Assembly (NCBI GenBank): GCA_016234925.1
Contig: JACRNI010000028.1
Span: 1 to 35,481, forward strand
Length of the DNA stretch: 35,481 bases
From: Deltaproteobacteria bacterium
GTDB lineage: Bacteria; Desulfobacterota; GWC2-55-46; UBA9637; GWC2-42-11
Direction: 5' to 3'
Part shown: piece by piece, positions 822-35,481 of the stretch
Layout of the letters: every line of letters starts with the position of its first letter
Numbering within the stretch: the stretch's first letter is position 1
Position numbers and translations under genes: made by a program
The notes under the pieces: model-generated
Database searches by the model: none
Told to the model about the DNA's origin: nothing
Seen by the model: only the letters and a program-made list of their open reading frames with translations

Positions 822-894
822 TACAGGGGTTAGGGATTAGCAGTTAGGGGTTAGTAAAAAAACTAACCTCTAATCTCTAACCCCTAATCCCTGC
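822..894. repeat. palindromic heptad-phased repeat (GGGGTTA GGGATTA ... TAACCCC TAATCCC), copy 1
   Basis: Words in register at 7-bp period on both arms; related copy 35398-35460. Confidence 0.85.
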
Positions 895-3611: not shown

Positions 3612-3648
3612 CTTTTAAAACCCCTTTAACCAATTGCTAAAAGTTTAA

Positions 3649-3770
3649 ACAGAGCGTCATAACTTTGCATACCTGCGTTGCTCCTCGGTTCATCGTTGCG
3701 GCGTATGCTAAAAATACGCCTCACTCTTCACCTTCGTCGCGCCTTGGTCTGCTTTGTTCTGACGCTCTGT
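3649..3770. repeat. MITE-like element family A, copy 1 (~122 bp, TIR ACAGAGCGTCA/TGACGCTCTGT)
   Basis: Near-identical copies at 18079-18198 (inverted) and 23112-23233; 11-bp terminal inverted repeats. Confidence 0.9.
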
Positions 3771-3806
3771 ATGCGGCTTTATTTATGTCGTTGTGTATAG
3801 ACTTAA

Positions 3807-5399: not shown

Positions 5400-5550
5400 T
5401 AGAAATCCCAATCTCAAATTCCAATAACCAAATCCCAAATTACAAATAAATTCCAATGTCCAAAATCCCAAATTCCAAATGGCATTATATCATTTTTGGT
5501 GCTTGGTTATTGTTTATTGTTTGATTATTGGTGCTTGGTTATTGGAATTT
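5400..5550. repeat. palindromic heptad-phased repeat (AATTCCAA.../GGTGCTTGGTTATTGGAATTT), copy 1
   Basis: Intergenic array with 7-bp words GGTGCTT, GGTTATT, GGAATTT; related array at 12841-12979. Confidence 0.8.
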
Positions 5551-5568: not shown

Positions 5569-6819
5569 TCAAAAATCTTTAACATATTTAAGGTAACCTT
5601 GATAATTTCTCTTTGTCTCTTTAACAGAATCGCCGCCAAACTTTTCTAAAAATACATTTGCTATCTCAAACGCTGTTACTGCCTCGCCGATTACAGACGC
5701 AGCAGGCACAGCGCATATATCAGACCTTTCTATGCTTGCCTTAAACGGCTTTTTTGTTTCCATATCAACTGACCTTAGCGGTTTATAAAGCGTTGGTATC
5801 GGCTTCATCGCAGCCCTTAAAATAATAGGCTCGCCATTACTCATCCCGCCCTCTATGCCGCCAGCGTTGTTGGTCTTTCTAAAAAATCTAGGCTCAACAG
5901 GCCATATCTCTCCTGACCCCTTGACCCCCCACCCATCCTTCGGATGGGTACCCGCCCTTGACCCCTTTTTATAAAATATCTCATCATGCGCCTCTGAACC
6001 AAACCTTTTGGCATTTTCAAAACCAATTCCAACCTCAACTCCTTTAATCGCCTGAATACTCATGAGCCCTATAGCAAGCCTTGCGTCGAGTTTCCTGTCC
6101 CACTGCACATGACTTCCAAGTCCCGGCGGAACGCCTGTAGCAGCAACCTCAAAGATACCGCCGACACTATCGCCATTCTTTTTTGCGCTATCTATAGCCT
6201 TCCTCATTTTCTCTGAAACCTTTTTATCAGGACACCTGACATCAGATTCTTCCGCCCTTAAAAAGATTTCTTCCAAATTTGAAATTTGGAATTTGGAATT
6301 TGGAATTATCTTTGCCCCTCCTATTTCTGTCACCCAACTCATAACCTTTATCCCAAACTCTTCCAAAAATCTTTTGCAAACAGCGCCGACTGCAACCCTT
6401 GCCGCAGTCTCCCTTGCGCTTGAACGTTCAAGTATATTTCTAATATCCCTATGGTCATATTTTAAAGCGCCTGCCAAATCAGCATGACCGGGTCTCGGTT
6501 TTGTCACTTCTTCTCCCATTGCCCATTGCCCATTGCCCATTGCCACTATATTCATAATCTCTTCCCAATTCTTCCAATCTTTATTTTTTATATTCATTGC
6601 AATGGGAGAGCCAATGGTTTCGCCAAATCTTACGCCAGATGTAATTTCAACGGAATCTTTCTCTATTGCCATCCTGCCGCCGCGTCCGTAGCCAACCTGC
6701 CTTCTGGCAAGTTCCTTGTTTATAAATCCCTCTGTAATTGAAAGATCTGCAATCATCCCCTCAAGGATTGCGGTTAAACACCTGCCATGAGACTCGCCTG
6801 CTGTTAAGTATCTTAACAT
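5569..6819 (-). CDS. aroC: chorismate synthase with three repeat-derived in-frame insertions
   Basis: [114 protein letters not shown]. Confidence 0.97.
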
Positions 6820-6954: not shown

Positions 6955-9900
6955 CTAATTTGCCGCATTCTCCGCTAATTTTTCCTTTAATATGGTCGGT
7001 GTAATAAATATCATGAGTTCTGCTCTAATATCTTTAACAGACTTGCTCTTAAAAAGCCATCCTAAAATAGGTATATCTTGCAGTAAAGGAATTCCCGATG
7101 TACCATCTGATTTGCTATTCTTAATGATGCCGCCTATAACTGCTGTCTCCCCATCCTTTACAAGTATTTCTGTTATTGCCTCTTTTTTGTTTATACTCGG
7201 CGCGCCGCTGGCTGACCTGAATTGACCAATCTCATTATTATTAACCTTTATCTTCATTATAATACTGCCGTCTGCTGTAATATGAGGCGTTACTGTAAGA
7301 CTTAAGTTTGCATCTATAAATGTTGTCTGAGTGCCGCTTGCAGATGTTGTTTCAAAAGGAATAGCCTCACCCTGCTGTATCTTCGCCTCTTTATTATCAA
7401 GTGTTGCTATCCTTGGTCTTGAGATAATCTTTGTCATGCCTGCCTGTTCACCTGCTGTTAACCGCATATCAAGTATCAACGGATTGATACCTAGTTTTCC
7501 AAGCACAAAACCAAGTCCACCAAAGGCTCCAGCAGCAGGCAAATTCACAGCATAGTTTGTTACACCAGCACGTGCCGGCCACTCTTTCTTCTCAGAGGGA
7601 TATACTCCACCGCTTTCTTTAGTAATATTATTCTGTACAGCCGGATTATGCGGCATCTGACCAAAACTTTTTTCCACACTTCCAAACACATCAGTATGCA
7701 CATTCCCTGATGTTTTATAATCCACACCCCACTGAATGCCCAAATCTCTAGAAAAATTATTCCCAGCCTCAATAATCCTTGCCTCTATTAAAACCTGCGG
7801 TGTTTGGGTATCAAGTTTTTTTACAAGTTCAACAGCCTTTTTTATACTTGCAGATATATCGCTTATTATAAGCATATTTGTTCTTTCATCAATTGCAACC
7901 TTTCCCCTGTCGCTCAAGACATCCTTTATCTGTTTTTCCATATCCTTTGCTACTGCATAACTAACAGGCACAATCTGTGTTACCAAATCTCCCAGTTTTT
8001 CCGTTGCCTTTTTTGCGGCAAGTGCAGCATCATCTTCCTGCTTTATCTTTGTTAGGGTTGCAATTCGTACAATATTGCCTTCCTGCGTCTTGCCCAGCCC
8101 TTTAGATTTCAAGATTATATCAAATGCCTGATGCCATGGGACATCTACAAGACGGAGCGTTACCTTTCCTGCAACGCCTTCGTCTGCAATAATATTAAGG
8201 CTGCTGACCTCTGCCATAAGTCTCAAGAGGTTGCCAATATCCGCGTCCTTAAAATCCAGAGAAAGTTTCTTGCAAAGGTATGTAGCGGGCATCTCGGCTT
8301 TGCAATCTACTGGGGTCTCTCCTGTTCCTGATGCAGATGTCCCTGCCAGAGACCCTGACGGAGACTCAACCTTTTTCTCTCCTTTTTCTTCACTAAAGGC
8401 TGCATTTGCTTCAATCTTTGCATTGACGCCTGCAGCAATGCTTGCAACTGGCGTTACACCCTCTGCCTTGTCCTGTTTTTGCAAGGTTTGCTCGGAAGAT
8501 ATCTTCATTTTGTCATTGCGAGCGGGGTACCCAAGCAATGCTTGGGTCGGCGTGGCAATCTCTTTTTTTGAGATTGCTTCGTCGCTAACACTCCTCGCAA
8601 TGACACTCTCACTCCCCTTTGCTGCCACCTGAGTCTGGACAGGGAATGTGAGATATATGTTATTATTATCCTGAAACACATCATAAAGCGCATTTTCTTT
8701 TAACTTAACAAGCACCCTTGCGCCTTTTAAAGCCTCGCCTGACATCTGAAATGAACTCACAGACGCAACAGCCGTATCCAGTGTTGACACATCGGCTGTC
8801 TTTTTTAATTCATCAGGCATATTAACATTTTTAAAATCAATAACAATGCTTTTGCCGTCAAGGGATTTTGAAAGTTTATAATCAGCCTTTTTTGAGGTTG
8901 TTATTGTCAATCTTGTGCCTGCTTGAGACGGCTTAAAGTCAATATTGCTGACTTTGTTTTCCAAAGTATTAGGTGAAGTCTCAGGCTTGACAGCGGCAAT
9001 TTGAGAAAGCGGCGTCTTTTTTACCTCAACCCTGCCGTATGAAATAGTCATTGCCGCGCCTGTTACATCAACTGAATACAAGGGCAGATTCTTTGGAATA
9101 GATTCAAACACCAGTCTTATCTTATCCTTATGCTCGCCGAGCCTTATCTTTTTTATATGACTGCCGCCTATGTTTATTTCCTTATCTTTATCCGCAATAG
9201 CCGTACCAACACCCCATATATCAAGAACCAGCCTTGACGGGTCATCCAATCCAAAGGCATTATAACTGCCAATATCTCCGTCCGCAAAAACCATTATTTG
9301 CGTCAAGTCCTTTTCTTTTTTAATAGTTTCTATGGCAGTAATCTTTTCAGCCTTTGCCCGATTAAGACCTTCGGGCACAGGTTTAACAGGCTCTGCTCCC
9401 CGATTAAGAACTTCGGGGACAGGTTTTTTCTCCTGCGCCTTCACCTCTTGAGACGCAGATGTATTCAAGGTTACGAGCAGTTTTCCTTCCTGCACATCAA
9501 TCTTATAATCTGCATCATTTTTTAATCCAATAGTCACTCTGCCTATCTTTGTCCCTGCCTGCTCCTTGCCATAATGGGCAGTTGTAATCTGGGTTATAAT
9601 TCCATTTTCAACAGTAACCGATTCTTTAACCTTATCAATATCTGCATCTGGTATATCTATAACCAAACGAAAAGGTTCTGACAGTTTAAAAGCGGTATAA
9701 GTAATATTGCCTGTCCCTTCAATCGACACCTTTGCAGTATCACCTGACTTATCAAATATTATATTATTTATCGAGACACCTTGTTTTTGCTGCTGGGATA
9801 TTGGCTCATCTGGCTTTACCTGCGCTGTCTTTTGCTGGCAGCCTGTAAAAACAGTGAAAAGTGAGAGGTTAAGAGTGGCAAGCAAAAAGAAAGTTTTGAG

Positions 9901-9972
9901 TTTTGAGTTTTGAGTTTTGAGTTTTCCCTTGACCCTTGACCCTTGACCCCTGACCTGTATTTTAGTATTCAT
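6955..9972 (-). CDS. pilQ: type IV pilus secretin PilQ (AMIN domains + secretin), with repeat insertions
   Basis: AMIN-like repeats, LSLDFKDADIGNLLRLMAEVSSLNIIADEGVAGKVTLRL, secretin core VLIEARIIEAGNNFSRDLGIQWG...AVIGGIIKNSKSDGTSGIPLLQDIPILGWLFKS; followed by pilP. Confidence 0.95.
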   Translation of the reverse strand: MNTKIQVRGQGSRVKGKLKTQNSKLKTFFLLATLNLSLFTVFTGCQQKTAQVKPDEPISQQQKQGVSINNIIFDKSGDTAKVSIEGTGNITYTAFKLSEPFRLVIDIPDADIDKVKESVTVENGIITQITTAHYGKEQAGTKIGRVTIGLKNDADYKIDVQEGKLLVTLNTSASQEVKAQEKKPVPEVLNRGAEPVKPVPEGLNRAKAEKITAIETIKKEKDLTQIMVFADGDIGSYNAFGLDDPSRLVLDIWGVGTAIADKDKEINIGGSHIKKIRLGEHKDKIRLVFESIPKNLPLYSVDVTGAAMTISYGRVEVKKTPLSQIAAVKPETSPNTLENKVSNIDFKPSQAGTRLTITTSKKADYKLSKSLDGKSIVIDFKNVNMPDELKKTADVSTLDTAVASVSSFQMSGEALKGARVLVKLKENALYDVFQDNNNIYLTFPVQTQVAAKGSESVIARSVSDEAISKKEIATPTQALLGYPARNDKMKISSEQTLQKQDKAEGVTPVASIAAGVNAKIEANAAFSEEKGEKKVESPSGSLAGTSASGTGETPVDCKAEMPATYLCKKLSLDFKDADIGNLLRLMAEVSSLNIIADEGVAGKVTLRLVDVPWHQAFDIILKSKGLGKTQEGNIVRIATLTKIKQEDDAALAAKKATEKLGDLVTQIVPVSYAVAKDMEKQIKDVLSDRGKVAIDERTNMLIISDISASIKKAVELVKKLDTQTPQVLIEARIIEAGNNFSRDLGIQWGVDYKTSGNVHTDVFGSVEKSFGQMPHNPAVQNNITKESGGVYPSEKKEWPARAGVTNYAVNLPAAGAFGGLGFVLGKLGINPLILDMRLTAGEQAGMTKIISRPRIATLDNKEAKIQQGEAIPFETTSASGTQTTFIDANLSLTVTPHITADGSIIMKIKVNNNEIGQFRSASGAPSINKKEAITEILVKDGETAVIGGIIKNSKSDGTSGIPLLQDIPILGWLFKSKSVKDIRAELMIFITPTILKEKLAENAAN
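8511..8605. repeat. MITE-like element family G (TIR TGTCATTGCGAG/CTCGCAATGACA) inside pilQ
   Basis: 12-bp perfect TIRs; second full copy 21073-21164 and partial copy ~22422-22476. Confidence 0.88.
9357..9425. repeat. two direct copies of hairpin unit CCCGATTAAGAnCTTCGGGnACAGGTTT inside pilQ
   Basis: Two ~28-bp copies separated by ~14 bp, encoding KPVPEVLNRGAEPVKPVPEGLNRA. Confidence 0.8.
9893..9953. repeat. heptanucleotide tandem repeats (GTTTTGA)4 and (CCCTTGA)3+variant in pilQ N-terminal coding region
   Basis: Direct reading of 9893-9920 and 9926-9953. Confidence 0.95.
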
Positions 9973-12840: not shown

Positions 12841-12979
12841 AGAAATCCAAATCACAAATTAAAAACAAATTCCAATAACCAAATCACAAATTCCAAATAA
12901 ATTCCAAATCTCAAATTCCAAACTGTTTGTTTATTGGTGCTTGGTTATTGGTTATTATTTGGTGCTTGGTGCTTGTTTG
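12841..12979. repeat. palindromic heptad-phased repeat, copy 2
   Basis: Same word set as 5400-5550: CCAAATAAATTCC..., GGTGCTT GGTTATT GGTTATT ... GGTGCTT GGTGCTT. Confidence 0.8.
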
Positions 12980-18052: not shown

Positions 18053-18078
18053 ACACAACGACATAAATAAATCCACAT

Positions 18079-18198
18079 ACAGAGCGTCAGAACAAAGCAG
18101 ACCAAGGCGCGACGAAGCGAGGAGTGAGGCGTATTTTCAGCATACGCCGCAGCGACGAGCGAGGAGCAACGCAGGTATGCGAAGTTATGACGCTCTGT
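18079..18198. repeat. MITE-like element family A, copy 2 (inverted relative to copies 1 and 3)
   Basis: ACAGAGCGTCA...TGACGCTCTGT; overlaps apparent start of hisIE. Confidence 0.9.
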
Positions 18199-18866
18199 AT
18201 AATATCAATCTGATAAAATTTGATGAAAGAGGGCTTGTGCCTGCGATTGTTCAGGAATATTCTACAGGCAGGGTTTTGATGCTTGCGTATATGAACAAAG
18301 AGGCATTGGAAAAGACTTTTTCAACAGGAAAGGCACATTACCATAGCCGTTCAAGGAATAAACTCTGGCTCAAAGGTGAGACATCAGGAAATATTCAGGA
18401 GGTCAAGGCTGTTTATTATGACTGCGATGAGGATGCGATACTCTTGAGTGTAAACCAAACAGGCCCTGCCTGTCATACAGGCGAGGAGAGTTGTTTTTTT
18501 AGAAGGCTTGATAATGGGGATGCATCAGCCCTCAGTCCTCAGTCCTCATCAGTTCTGCCTGAACTCTTTAAGACTATAAAAGATAGAAAAAATGCATCTC
18601 CAGATAAATCATATGTGGCATCCCTTTATGCAAAAGGTTTAGATAAGATTTTAGAAAAGGTTAAAGAGGAATCCTCTGAACTTATTGACGCAGCAAAAAA
18701 TGGTGTAAAAAAAGATATAGTCCATGAGACAGCAGACCTATGGTTTCATACACTGATTTTACTTGGAGAAATGGATATAGATTTTATGGATATATTAGCA
18801 GAATTTAAGAAAAGAGCAGGAATATCAGGAATAGAAGAAAAGGCAAAAAGAGGGGAAAATGGGTAA
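18177..18866 (+). CDS. hisIE: bifunctional phosphoribosyl-AMP cyclohydrolase/phosphoribosyl-ATP pyrophosphatase
   Basis: [79 protein letters not shown]-terminal HisE ([26 protein letters not shown]). Start ATG 18177 with GAGGAG upstream chosen over the longer ORF start at 17973. Confidence 0.93.
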
Positions 18867-23106: not shown

Positions 23107-23111
23107 TCAAC

Positions 23112-23233
23112 ACAGAGCGTCATAACTGTGCATACCTGCGTTGCTCCTCGGCTCGTCGTTGCGGCGTATGCTTAAAATACGCCTCACTCCTCGCCTTTGT
23201 CGCGCCTTGCTCTGCTTTGTTCTGACGCTCTGT
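23112..23233. repeat. MITE-like element family A, copy 3
   Basis: ACAGAGCGTCATAACTGTGCATACC...TTCTGACGCTCTGT. Confidence 0.9.
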
Positions 23234-23246
23234 ATAAAAATATCTT

Positions 23247-31297: not shown

Positions 31298-31798
31298 ATG
31301 TTTAAGAAAGTCATAGTCATGGTATGTATTAGTGTATTTCTGACAACTGCAATGGCATTTGCAGGTTCAGACATCAAAGGCGCAGTTATCAATAAATCAG
31401 ATGTAAAAGGCGCGGCAAACATTGCAATCAACGAAAAAAACAAAGCCAACATGGGTGCAACAAATATTGAAGACTCAAAGGTTAAAGGCGCAGTCATCAA
31501 CCAGTCAGATGTAAAAGGCGCGGCAAACATTGCAATCGGTAAAGGAAATGAAGCCAATATGGGTGCAGTTAACATAAAAGGTTCTGATGTTAAAGGTGCC
31601 GTAATCAATAAATCAGATGTAAAAGGCGCGGCAAACATTGCAATCGGCGAAAAAAACAAAGCCAACATGGGTTCGGTTAACATAAAAGATTCAAAAGTTA
31701 AAGGCGCAGTCATCAACCAGTCAGATGTAAAAGGCGCGGCAAACATTGCAATCGGCAAGGGCAACGAAGCCAATATGGGTGCAGTAAACGTAAAATAA
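31298..31798 (+). CDS. secreted 4x36-aa repeat protein, curlin-like / beta-solenoid candidate
   Basis: 22-aa signal peptide then exactly four 36-residue units (GSDVKGAVINKSDVKGAANIAIGEKNKANMGSVNIK type). Confidence 0.85.
   Translation: MFKKVIVMVCISVFLTTAMAFAGSDIKGAVINKSDVKGAANIAINEKNKANMGATNIEDSKVKGAVINQSDVKGAANIAIGKGNEANMGAVNIKGSDVKGAVINKSDVKGAANIAIGEKNKANMGSVNIKDSKVKGAVINQSDVKGAANIAIGKGNEANMGAVNVK
31364..31795 (+). repeat. four tandem 108-bp units in an alternating A-B-A-B arrangement
   Basis: 31364-31471, 31472-31579, 31580-31687, 31688-31795; units 1/3 and 2/4 most alike. Confidence 0.9.
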
Positions 31799-35370: not shown

Positions 35371-35481
35371 ACAGAGCGTCAGAACAAAGTTAGAATACAG
35401 GTGTTAGGGATTAGGGATTAGTTTTTTTACTAACCCCTAACTACTAAACCCTAATCCCTGCCTCAATACGCAGGTATGCGA
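35371..35481. repeat. family A MITE-like end with a heptad-phased palindrome (35398-35460) in its interior, running off the window
   Basis: ACAGAGCGTCAGAACAAAG...GCAGGTATGCGA is family A; interior is TTAGGGATTAGGGATTAG...CTAATCCCTG. Confidence 0.75.

Follow-up and report, generated by a model that had tools for sequence, protein, structure and literature searches.

The gap between an AccC-like gene and the gene encoding AccB contains a hairpin composed of 7-nt words (positions 824–894 of the 35,481-nt stretch of DNA analysed in this study, hereafter referred to as the window), which raises the question of how such heptad structures are formed. The left arm (826–853) reads GGGGTTA GGGATTA GCAGTTA GGGGTTA and is followed by an A-rich loop; the right arm has the same register and ends, and is built of other words. 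RNA folding of this hairpin gave −41.4 kcal/mol (z −6.2). Of the adjacent genes, AccB (biotin carrier) was identified by Pfam and AccC (biotin carboxylase-like) by position only. A preliminary description of the window had placed the hairpin in one class with a number of other arrays, every one of which was found where it had been reported; among these are the arrays at 6515–6542, 9893–9949, 18531–18544 and 35407–35420.

The period of 7 nt was evident at the level of the whole genome. Counting runs of at least 10 consecutive matches at a given lag, we detected seven such runs at lag 7 in the window, versus 0–1 at each other lag from 3 to 13. The genome to which the window belongs (the own genome) is a draft in 177 contigs, and in the 857 kb analysed there were 81 runs at lag 7, compared with 1, 11, 28 and 13 at lags 5, 6, 8 and 9, respectively, and with 3 lag-7 runs in a third-order Markov control; lags 14 and 21 were likewise high (75 and 51 runs). 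The excess of lag 7 over lags 5, 6, 8 and 9, whose absence had been set beforehand as the finding that would speak against the class, is therefore present. Lag-7 runs occurred at 94.5 per Mb in the own genome, and at 134 and 122 per Mb in the relatives G004 and G008; in all three, tandem 7-nt units exceeded other unit lengths, as is characteristic of the heptameric STRR class of cyanobacteria. The own genome and its relatives contain hundreds of short tracts comprising four or five copies of varying 7-letter words.

Repeats are prone to misassembly and the own genome is a 177-contig draft, which might point to chance or an assembly artefact. This explanation is highly improbable, given the 81 runs against approximately 3 expected, the recurrence of the trait in several separate genomes and in isolates (including Nostoc and Flavobacterium), and the open reading frames that run through arrays. 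For the arrays as a class it is refuted, although single loci, such as an array replacement between G004 and G008 described below, could be chimeras. We consider instead, with a probability of roughly 0.5, that the arrays are high-turnover heptameric simple repeats, which arise by misaligned copying in 7-nt steps and by exchange, and are filtered by selection.

Besides the hairpin at 824–894, four further heptad hairpins were identified in the window. An intergenic one at 1382–1445, upstream of AccB, consists of CAGTGTC, GACACTG and AACACTG words (the last repeated at 1432–1445) and folds with a z of −5.6. The large hairpin at 5403–5545 (z −3.2), a member of family B, has CCAANNN words (AAATCCC, AAATTCC, AATAACC) in its left arm and TTGGTGC/TTGGTTA words in its right arm. 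A second family B hairpin, at 12843–12975 (z −2.7; apex CAAACTGTTTG), carries GGTGCTT/GGTTATT words in the right arm, including those at 12936–12956 and 12961–12974. The hairpin at 35395–35462 repeats the design of 824–894, with three words in the left arm and four in the right.

All five fold better than shuffled sequences (z −2.7 to −6.2), as would be anticipated if the arrays were selected binding sites or RNA structures, e.g. for a heptamer-binding RNA protein. Such proteins, Csp or S1, were proposed by MacGregor (2015) for the TAACTGA direct repeats of Beggiatoaceae, which also occur in some cyanobacteria and Bacteroidetes, and in most cases immediately precede start codons (PMC4679880). 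Those repeats resemble the arrays described here in being 7-nt direct repeats that are found throughout the genome in short arrays, but they have one dominant word, with related heptamers rarely repeated, whereas we observed dozens of words and many arrays within coding sequence. Selection for binding or RNA structure is a quite unlikely origin of the arrays: the words differ widely within a genome and at the same site between sister genomes, many arrays are placed inside genes, and the window contains no Rfam match at the gathering threshold.

The preliminary description had framed its test in terms of intergenic repeats, but several of the arrays it listed lie inside the genes for chorismate synthase, a PilQ-like secretin and HisIE. 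Among 282 arrays, 140 were intergenic and 142 were placed in greedy ORFs (51 N-terminal, 83 internal and 8 C-terminal), so that, in this respect, the arrays depart from the STRR class, which is mainly intergenic. Since coding sequence makes up 84%, intergenic DNA is still enriched in arrays per base. Within genes, the arrays were concentrated near the start codon, with 47 beginning within 120 nt of it (15.7 expected), i.e. a three-fold excess. A signal- or TM-like start, defined as a basic and then hydrophobic N-terminus by a simple hydropathy rule and not by a signal-peptide predictor, was found in 21 of the 40 genes that carry an N-terminal array and in 388 of the 1318 that do not (p 0.003); one such N-terminal array encodes MKKESQKSKVKS...FLLFTVHCSLFTVLYGC. 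Arrays at gene starts often encode predicted signal peptides, as judged from sequence. In the window, two adjoining arrays at 9892–9955 on the minus strand (GTTTTGA ×4–5 and CCCTTGA ×4) encode the basic n-region of the signal peptide of the PilQ-like secretin, MNTKIQVRGQGSRVKGKLKTQNSKLKTFFLLATLNLSLFTVFTGC. A TCAGTCC array (18525–18548, plus strand) forms residues 185–192 of HisIE, in the linker between the PRA-CH domain, which extends to residue 176, and the PRA-PH domain, which begins at residue 196. The literature searched, which gave partial coverage, yielded no description of in-frame arrays serving as signal peptides or loops. Heptameric repeats as such are already known, and it is their in-frame coding use that is the new aspect. 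The window also contains a 108-bp tandem repeat (31376–31795, 3.9 copies) inside a 166-aa ORF (31298–31798), corresponding to a 36-residue protein repeat.

The chorismate synthase gene (aroC; 5569–6819, minus strand, Pfam match) carries arrays in three loops, all of them in frame and on the minus strand: GGCAATG ×4 (CCCATTG on the plus strand) in loop 1 (6515–6544), an AATTCCA-type array including the GGAATTT ×3 region (6288–6307) in loop 2 (6275–6307), and GGGTCAA-type words in loop 3 (5913–5967). Nested in the last is a palindrome, GGGCGGGTACCCATCCGAAGGATGGGTGGG (5927–5957), matching three other places in the own genome and one in G001; a similar nested palindrome, ACCCCCGATAGAATCAATCGGGGGC, was observed in the signal-peptide array of a copper gene of G009. 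The same three loops hold in-frame arrays in most of the examined members of the order (families f1 and f2), with species-specific words: GGCAATG, GGGGCAA/TGGGCAA, CCGAGTT opposite CGTGTTT, GAGTTCG and CAGGGGT in loop 1; AATTCCA, AAGTTCA, AAGCTCA, GGATTTC and CAGGGGT in loop 2; and GGGTCAA, AGGGGCA and CAGAAGT in loop 3, where G003 has a different insert. In other families of the class, 20 aroC loci were all free of arrays. Compared with the outgroups, loop 2 has gained approximately 4 residues, not 7.

These loops present two difficulties for a copying model. A single 7-nt step within a gene is a frameshift, and stepwise growth inside chorismate synthase would thus pass through broken states. 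Moreover, words in the same loop of different species were barely closer than words in different loops (2.75 versus 2.97 differences), and gradual in-place descent at aroC is therefore not demonstrated.

The preliminary description had also reported different words in register and inverted partners, and both features were confirmed. Words varied preferentially in particular columns of the 7-nt frame (statistic 2165 versus 1617 ± 75). In 31 pairs of adjacent arrays (at most 40 nt apart) the mean reverse-complement identity was 0.71, versus 0.56 for random pairing; same-strand identity amounted to 0.55, and no pair was perfectly inverted (0/31). On reading, the arms of a single hairpin displayed related but differing words, each near-uniform within its arm (e.g. 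AGTGAAT opposite AGTCAAA, and GGTCATT opposite AGTCAAY). The view that the arrays have a period and not a sequence in common was only partly borne out: the period is common, but word sharing within a genome exceeds that of a letter-shuffled null approximately 11-fold (0.0186 versus 0.0017). The probability that two arrays share a word was 0.019 within a genome, 0.0175 within a genus and 0.007 between families (permutation p 0.0005). Words are likewise interchangeable across species, as had been claimed, but drawn from a restricted repertoire within a lineage.

Copies inside arrays resembled each other only a little more closely at distance 1 (0.84) than at distances 2 (0.81) and 3 (0.80), which argues against the copying model, and even this slight excess could be explained by lag-7 selection alone. 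Neither stop-free nor self-complementary words were enriched over letter shuffles; the array words contained fewer purine/pyrimidine alternations, more AA/TT, and fewer TA and CpG.

Array length is a further problem for copying, as stepwise slippage predicts falling lengths, whereas the arrays of the own genome and the order, when pooled, peaked at 30–33 nt (126/394). Among arrays of at least 90% identity, few exceeded 41 nt: 54 were 30–33 nt long, 14 were 34–35 nt, 10 were 36–41 nt and one was beyond 42 nt. A peak at 30–35 nt was present in the own genome, G004, G008 and CPR loci, and was weaker in cyanobacteria. Such a peak would suit a dedicated enzyme, resembling a terminal transferase, polymerase or reverse transcriptase and common to the array-bearing phyla, that writes tracts of approximately 31 nt by 7-nt additions; it would also suit the occurrence of an array-rich clade beside array-free families. 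We regard this explanation as doubtful, since the peak may result in part from frame selection and, in non-coding arrays, can be partly due to common descent. Arrays that are open together with their flanks peaked at 30–35 nt and carry most of the length peak, so that frame selection may account for part of it. Frame selection as the only cause of a 31-nt length (10 + 3×7) was rejected, although partly supported, because arrays stopped in all six frames are also 30–31 nt long (16/53); this excess probably reflects copies of a few families.

Comparison of relatives, which the preliminary description had recommended for detecting copy-number change, revealed an orthologous hairpin of 110 nt in G008 and 103 nt in G004, a difference of exactly one heptamer. 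By reading, a hairpin arm of G005 was 7 nt shorter than that of G006. Of 28 array comparisons, a number in which each direction is counted, 4 showed a difference by a non-zero multiple of 7, and most differed more radically. At one locus, covered by G008:C4:11586–12868 and its G004 counterpart, a signal-peptide array was wholly different between G008 and G004, the flanking coding DNA being identical over 750 and 406 bp, i.e. with 0 substitutions in the 1,156 bp alongside. The own genome, G002 and G004 have one common version of this array (MKKTIT.YELR..NL), which suggests that the change occurred in G008. The DNA around the segment is approximately 85% identical, and the identical segment therefore looks like a recent exchange; the replacement could, alternatively, be the product of a chimeric assembly. 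For one array of G008, partial matches were found at dozens of other places in G008, G004 and G009. Array sites had a mean identity of 0.61, compared with 0.90 for control sites chosen at random, most of them coding. A turnover of arrays exceeding that of other intergenic DNA was rejected as a general claim, as array-free gaps diverge equally (0.46, n=10) when compared with array gaps (0.54, n=17).

The replacement of a whole array agrees with another possibility, according to which the heptad hairpins are non-autonomous mobile palindromes of the REP/MITE type, mobilised as units by a transposase, either Y1 (RAYT-like) or of another type, with the 7-nt phasing being an internal property of the element and its terminal hairpins. 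Some larger hairpins (families A–D) are recurrent, dispersed elements with a shared internal order and common ends; copies of family A, for instance, have similar ends resembling AACAGGG...CCCTGYTTT. Copies of family D are flanked by short hairpins, e.g. CTCACGAAGTGAG and CATTCTTGCGAATG, which were noticed around this family only. The heptad hairpin at 35395–35462 of the window occupies the expected interior of a MITE copy, and Y1_Tnp is encoded by most members of the order. We nevertheless consider transposition an unlikely source of the class, though not a negligible one: many arrays are plain single-word tracts without an inverted partner and, by eye, plain arrays lack common ends, while the 53 word classes found among 73 arrays of the own genome (those without the seed word used below) are too varied for a few families. 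The arrays share with REP/BIME and MITE elements the dispersal of small palindromes, some hairpin ends and the presence of Y1_Tnp in most host genomes, but most of them have no conserved ends, and nothing in common beyond the period.

Several observations concern individual elements. Family D hairpins were located at L013:853, L026:18206, L026:18775, L031:1010 and L070:155, flanked by the short hairpins CATTCTTGCGAATG, CTCACGAAGTGAG and ATGGAGCGAAGCGAC in varying combinations, as if they were composite elements. Identical family A arrays are present at L025:8828 and L025:9028, approximately 200 bp apart, each directly after the apparent 3' end of a tRNA gene. A dispersed palindromic MITE-like element of approximately 126 bp coexists with the arrays in the window (18077–18200, 3647–3772, 23110–23235 and an interrupted copy from 35361). 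Its terminal repeats are ATACAGAGCGTC/GACGCTCTGTAT; 35 end-pairs, some of them nested, were found in the 857 kb, and a protein search also located it in related genomes, among them G005 and G014 of another family.

The preliminary description had ascribed the arrays to one 7-nt-stepping process and had advised a search for an associated polymerase, reverse transcriptase or REP-transposase. The genome-wide class with a 7-nt step, and its affinity to STRR, were upheld; the evidence did not extend to a single process. None of the tested families (RVT_1, Y1_Tnp, DinB, MutS) tracked the arrays, which weighs against a dedicated enzyme. RVT_1 gave no match in G001–G003 and G005–G007, all members of the order, and array loci were read in five of these genomes (G001, G002, G003, G005 and G006). 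A reverse transcriptase (telomerase-like, DGR or retron) was rejected as the maker of the arrays, as RVT_1 is missing from most array-bearing relatives. Most members of the order had 2–12 matches to Y1_Tnp, and the own genome had 5. There was no match in G001 (100% complete), whose aroC locus carries an array, whereas G011, G016, G017 and G040 encode Y1_Tnp and have array-free aroC loci. The Y1 transposase is enriched, yet appears neither necessary nor sufficient, and its presence in every element-bearing genome, as typical of REP/RAYT systems, was not observed. DinB polymerase was dismissed as a cause, because it occurs both inside and outside the array clade, and loss of mismatch repair is not a general cause, since MutS was found in most members of the order. 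In two array-rich genomes, G004 (99% complete) and G008, MutS1 gave no match and only a spurious one, respectively.

Arrays are frequent in the order to which the window belongs (families f1 and f2); comparable loci in other families of the class lack them. The distribution was extended using a single seed word, (TTTTGAC)×3. Within the phylum, with one mismatch allowed, this word was present in 12 of 298 genomes, with the most numerous copies in the own genome; it also matched at least 119 stretches in named genomes; among the matches listed, these were mostly from Cyanobacteria, followed by Bacteroidota, CPR and Nitrospirota. Away from the seed, the loci among the matches listed had 241 lag-7 segments per Mb in cyanobacteria, 84 in Bacteroidota, 360 in CPR and 466 in others, compared with approximately 0–50 per Mb at most lags that are not multiples of 7 (higher values at such lags appeared only in the small set of others). 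With the seed word excluded, the own genome and order shared 12 of 32 words with CPR/Bacteroidota/others (null 3.2, p<0.001) and 14 of 59 distinct words with cyanobacteria (null 6.7, p 0.006). This cross-phylum vocabulary exceeds what composition predicts and is unexplained by slippage alone, and it is compatible with the dedicated enzyme considered above. It is also possible, although rather improbable, that active DNA writing in 7-nt steps, with a product of approximately 31 nt, either single or paired as a hairpin, operates in several phyla with overlapping words, outpaces point mutation, and supplies signal peptides and loops.

An over-representation of heptamers among long simple repeats was reported by Mrazek (2007), who proposed polymerase slippage (as cited in PMC4679880 and PMC4692102). 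The STRR were described as three tandem heptanucleotides in Calothrix PCC 7601 (as cited in PMC4692102), and mixtures of heptamers occur in Microcystis and Cyanothece (PMC4679880). The kinship with STRR put forward in the preliminary description is supported by the predominance of Cyanobacteria among the listed (TTTTGAC)×3 matches, whose loci hold further heptamer arrays. Both groups have tandem 7-nt units, words mixed within an array, 7-nt indels between strains and even identical words, e.g. (TTTTGAC)×3. Unlike STRR, the arrays described here occur in a distant lineage, many of them in frame inside genes; they frequently form imperfect inverted pairs and have a sharp length of 30–35 nt. The GGGAATC and GGGGA(C/T)T repeats of Xanthomonas and Nostoc, interpreted as G-quadruplexes (PMC4692102), are similar in being G-rich heptamers, intergenic and sometimes inverted, whose length and sequence at a given gene pair vary strongly from one close species to another. 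However, each genus has one G-rich word, whereas G-rich words are a minority among those found in this study. The in-frame placement of arrays has a parallel in palindromic repeats of another genus.

Rickettsia palindromic elements are inserted in frame in protein-coding genes, often at surface positions; the members of each family are related in sequence and show no heptamer period. In the arrays, in contrast, the period is constant and the words change.

How might the favoured process, i.e. misaligned copying and exchange followed by selection, generate these features? We infer both causes from the observed arrays. Misaligned DNA copying with a 7-nt step would make the arrays and keep their copies alike, and out-of-register re-pairing would need only a core of 3–4 nt recurring every 7 nt. 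Recombination or template switching among arrays or array hairpins could spread tracts or swap them between sites. The lineage-specific words and the many partial matches of the G008 array argue for a genuine contribution of exchange or dispersal, and, given the replacement of a whole array at one locus, exchange must be a major component. Selection would then act as a filter: most intergenic arrays, many of them imperfect hairpins, may be tolerated, while in genes only frame-preserving arrays would survive, which would account for their presence in surface loops, domain linkers and N-termini. The two complementary arms of a hairpin may differ in the residues they encode, basic or polar in one and hydrophobic in the other, and a hairpin could therefore serve as a signal peptide.

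As early as 2007, bacterial genomes were noted to contain 7-nt repeats in excess (Mrazek, as cited in PMC4679880), and there is no agreement on the cause. A clade that carries in-frame arrays at fixed sites in essential-looking genes, with words specific to each species, makes this question testable by simple sequence comparison, as well as by mutation accumulation. The heptad hairpin, with its polar, basic arm and its hydrophobic arm, points to an easy way in which new signal peptides could arise. If a specific enzyme were indeed responsible for the arrays, it would represent a new kind of genome-modifying activity.
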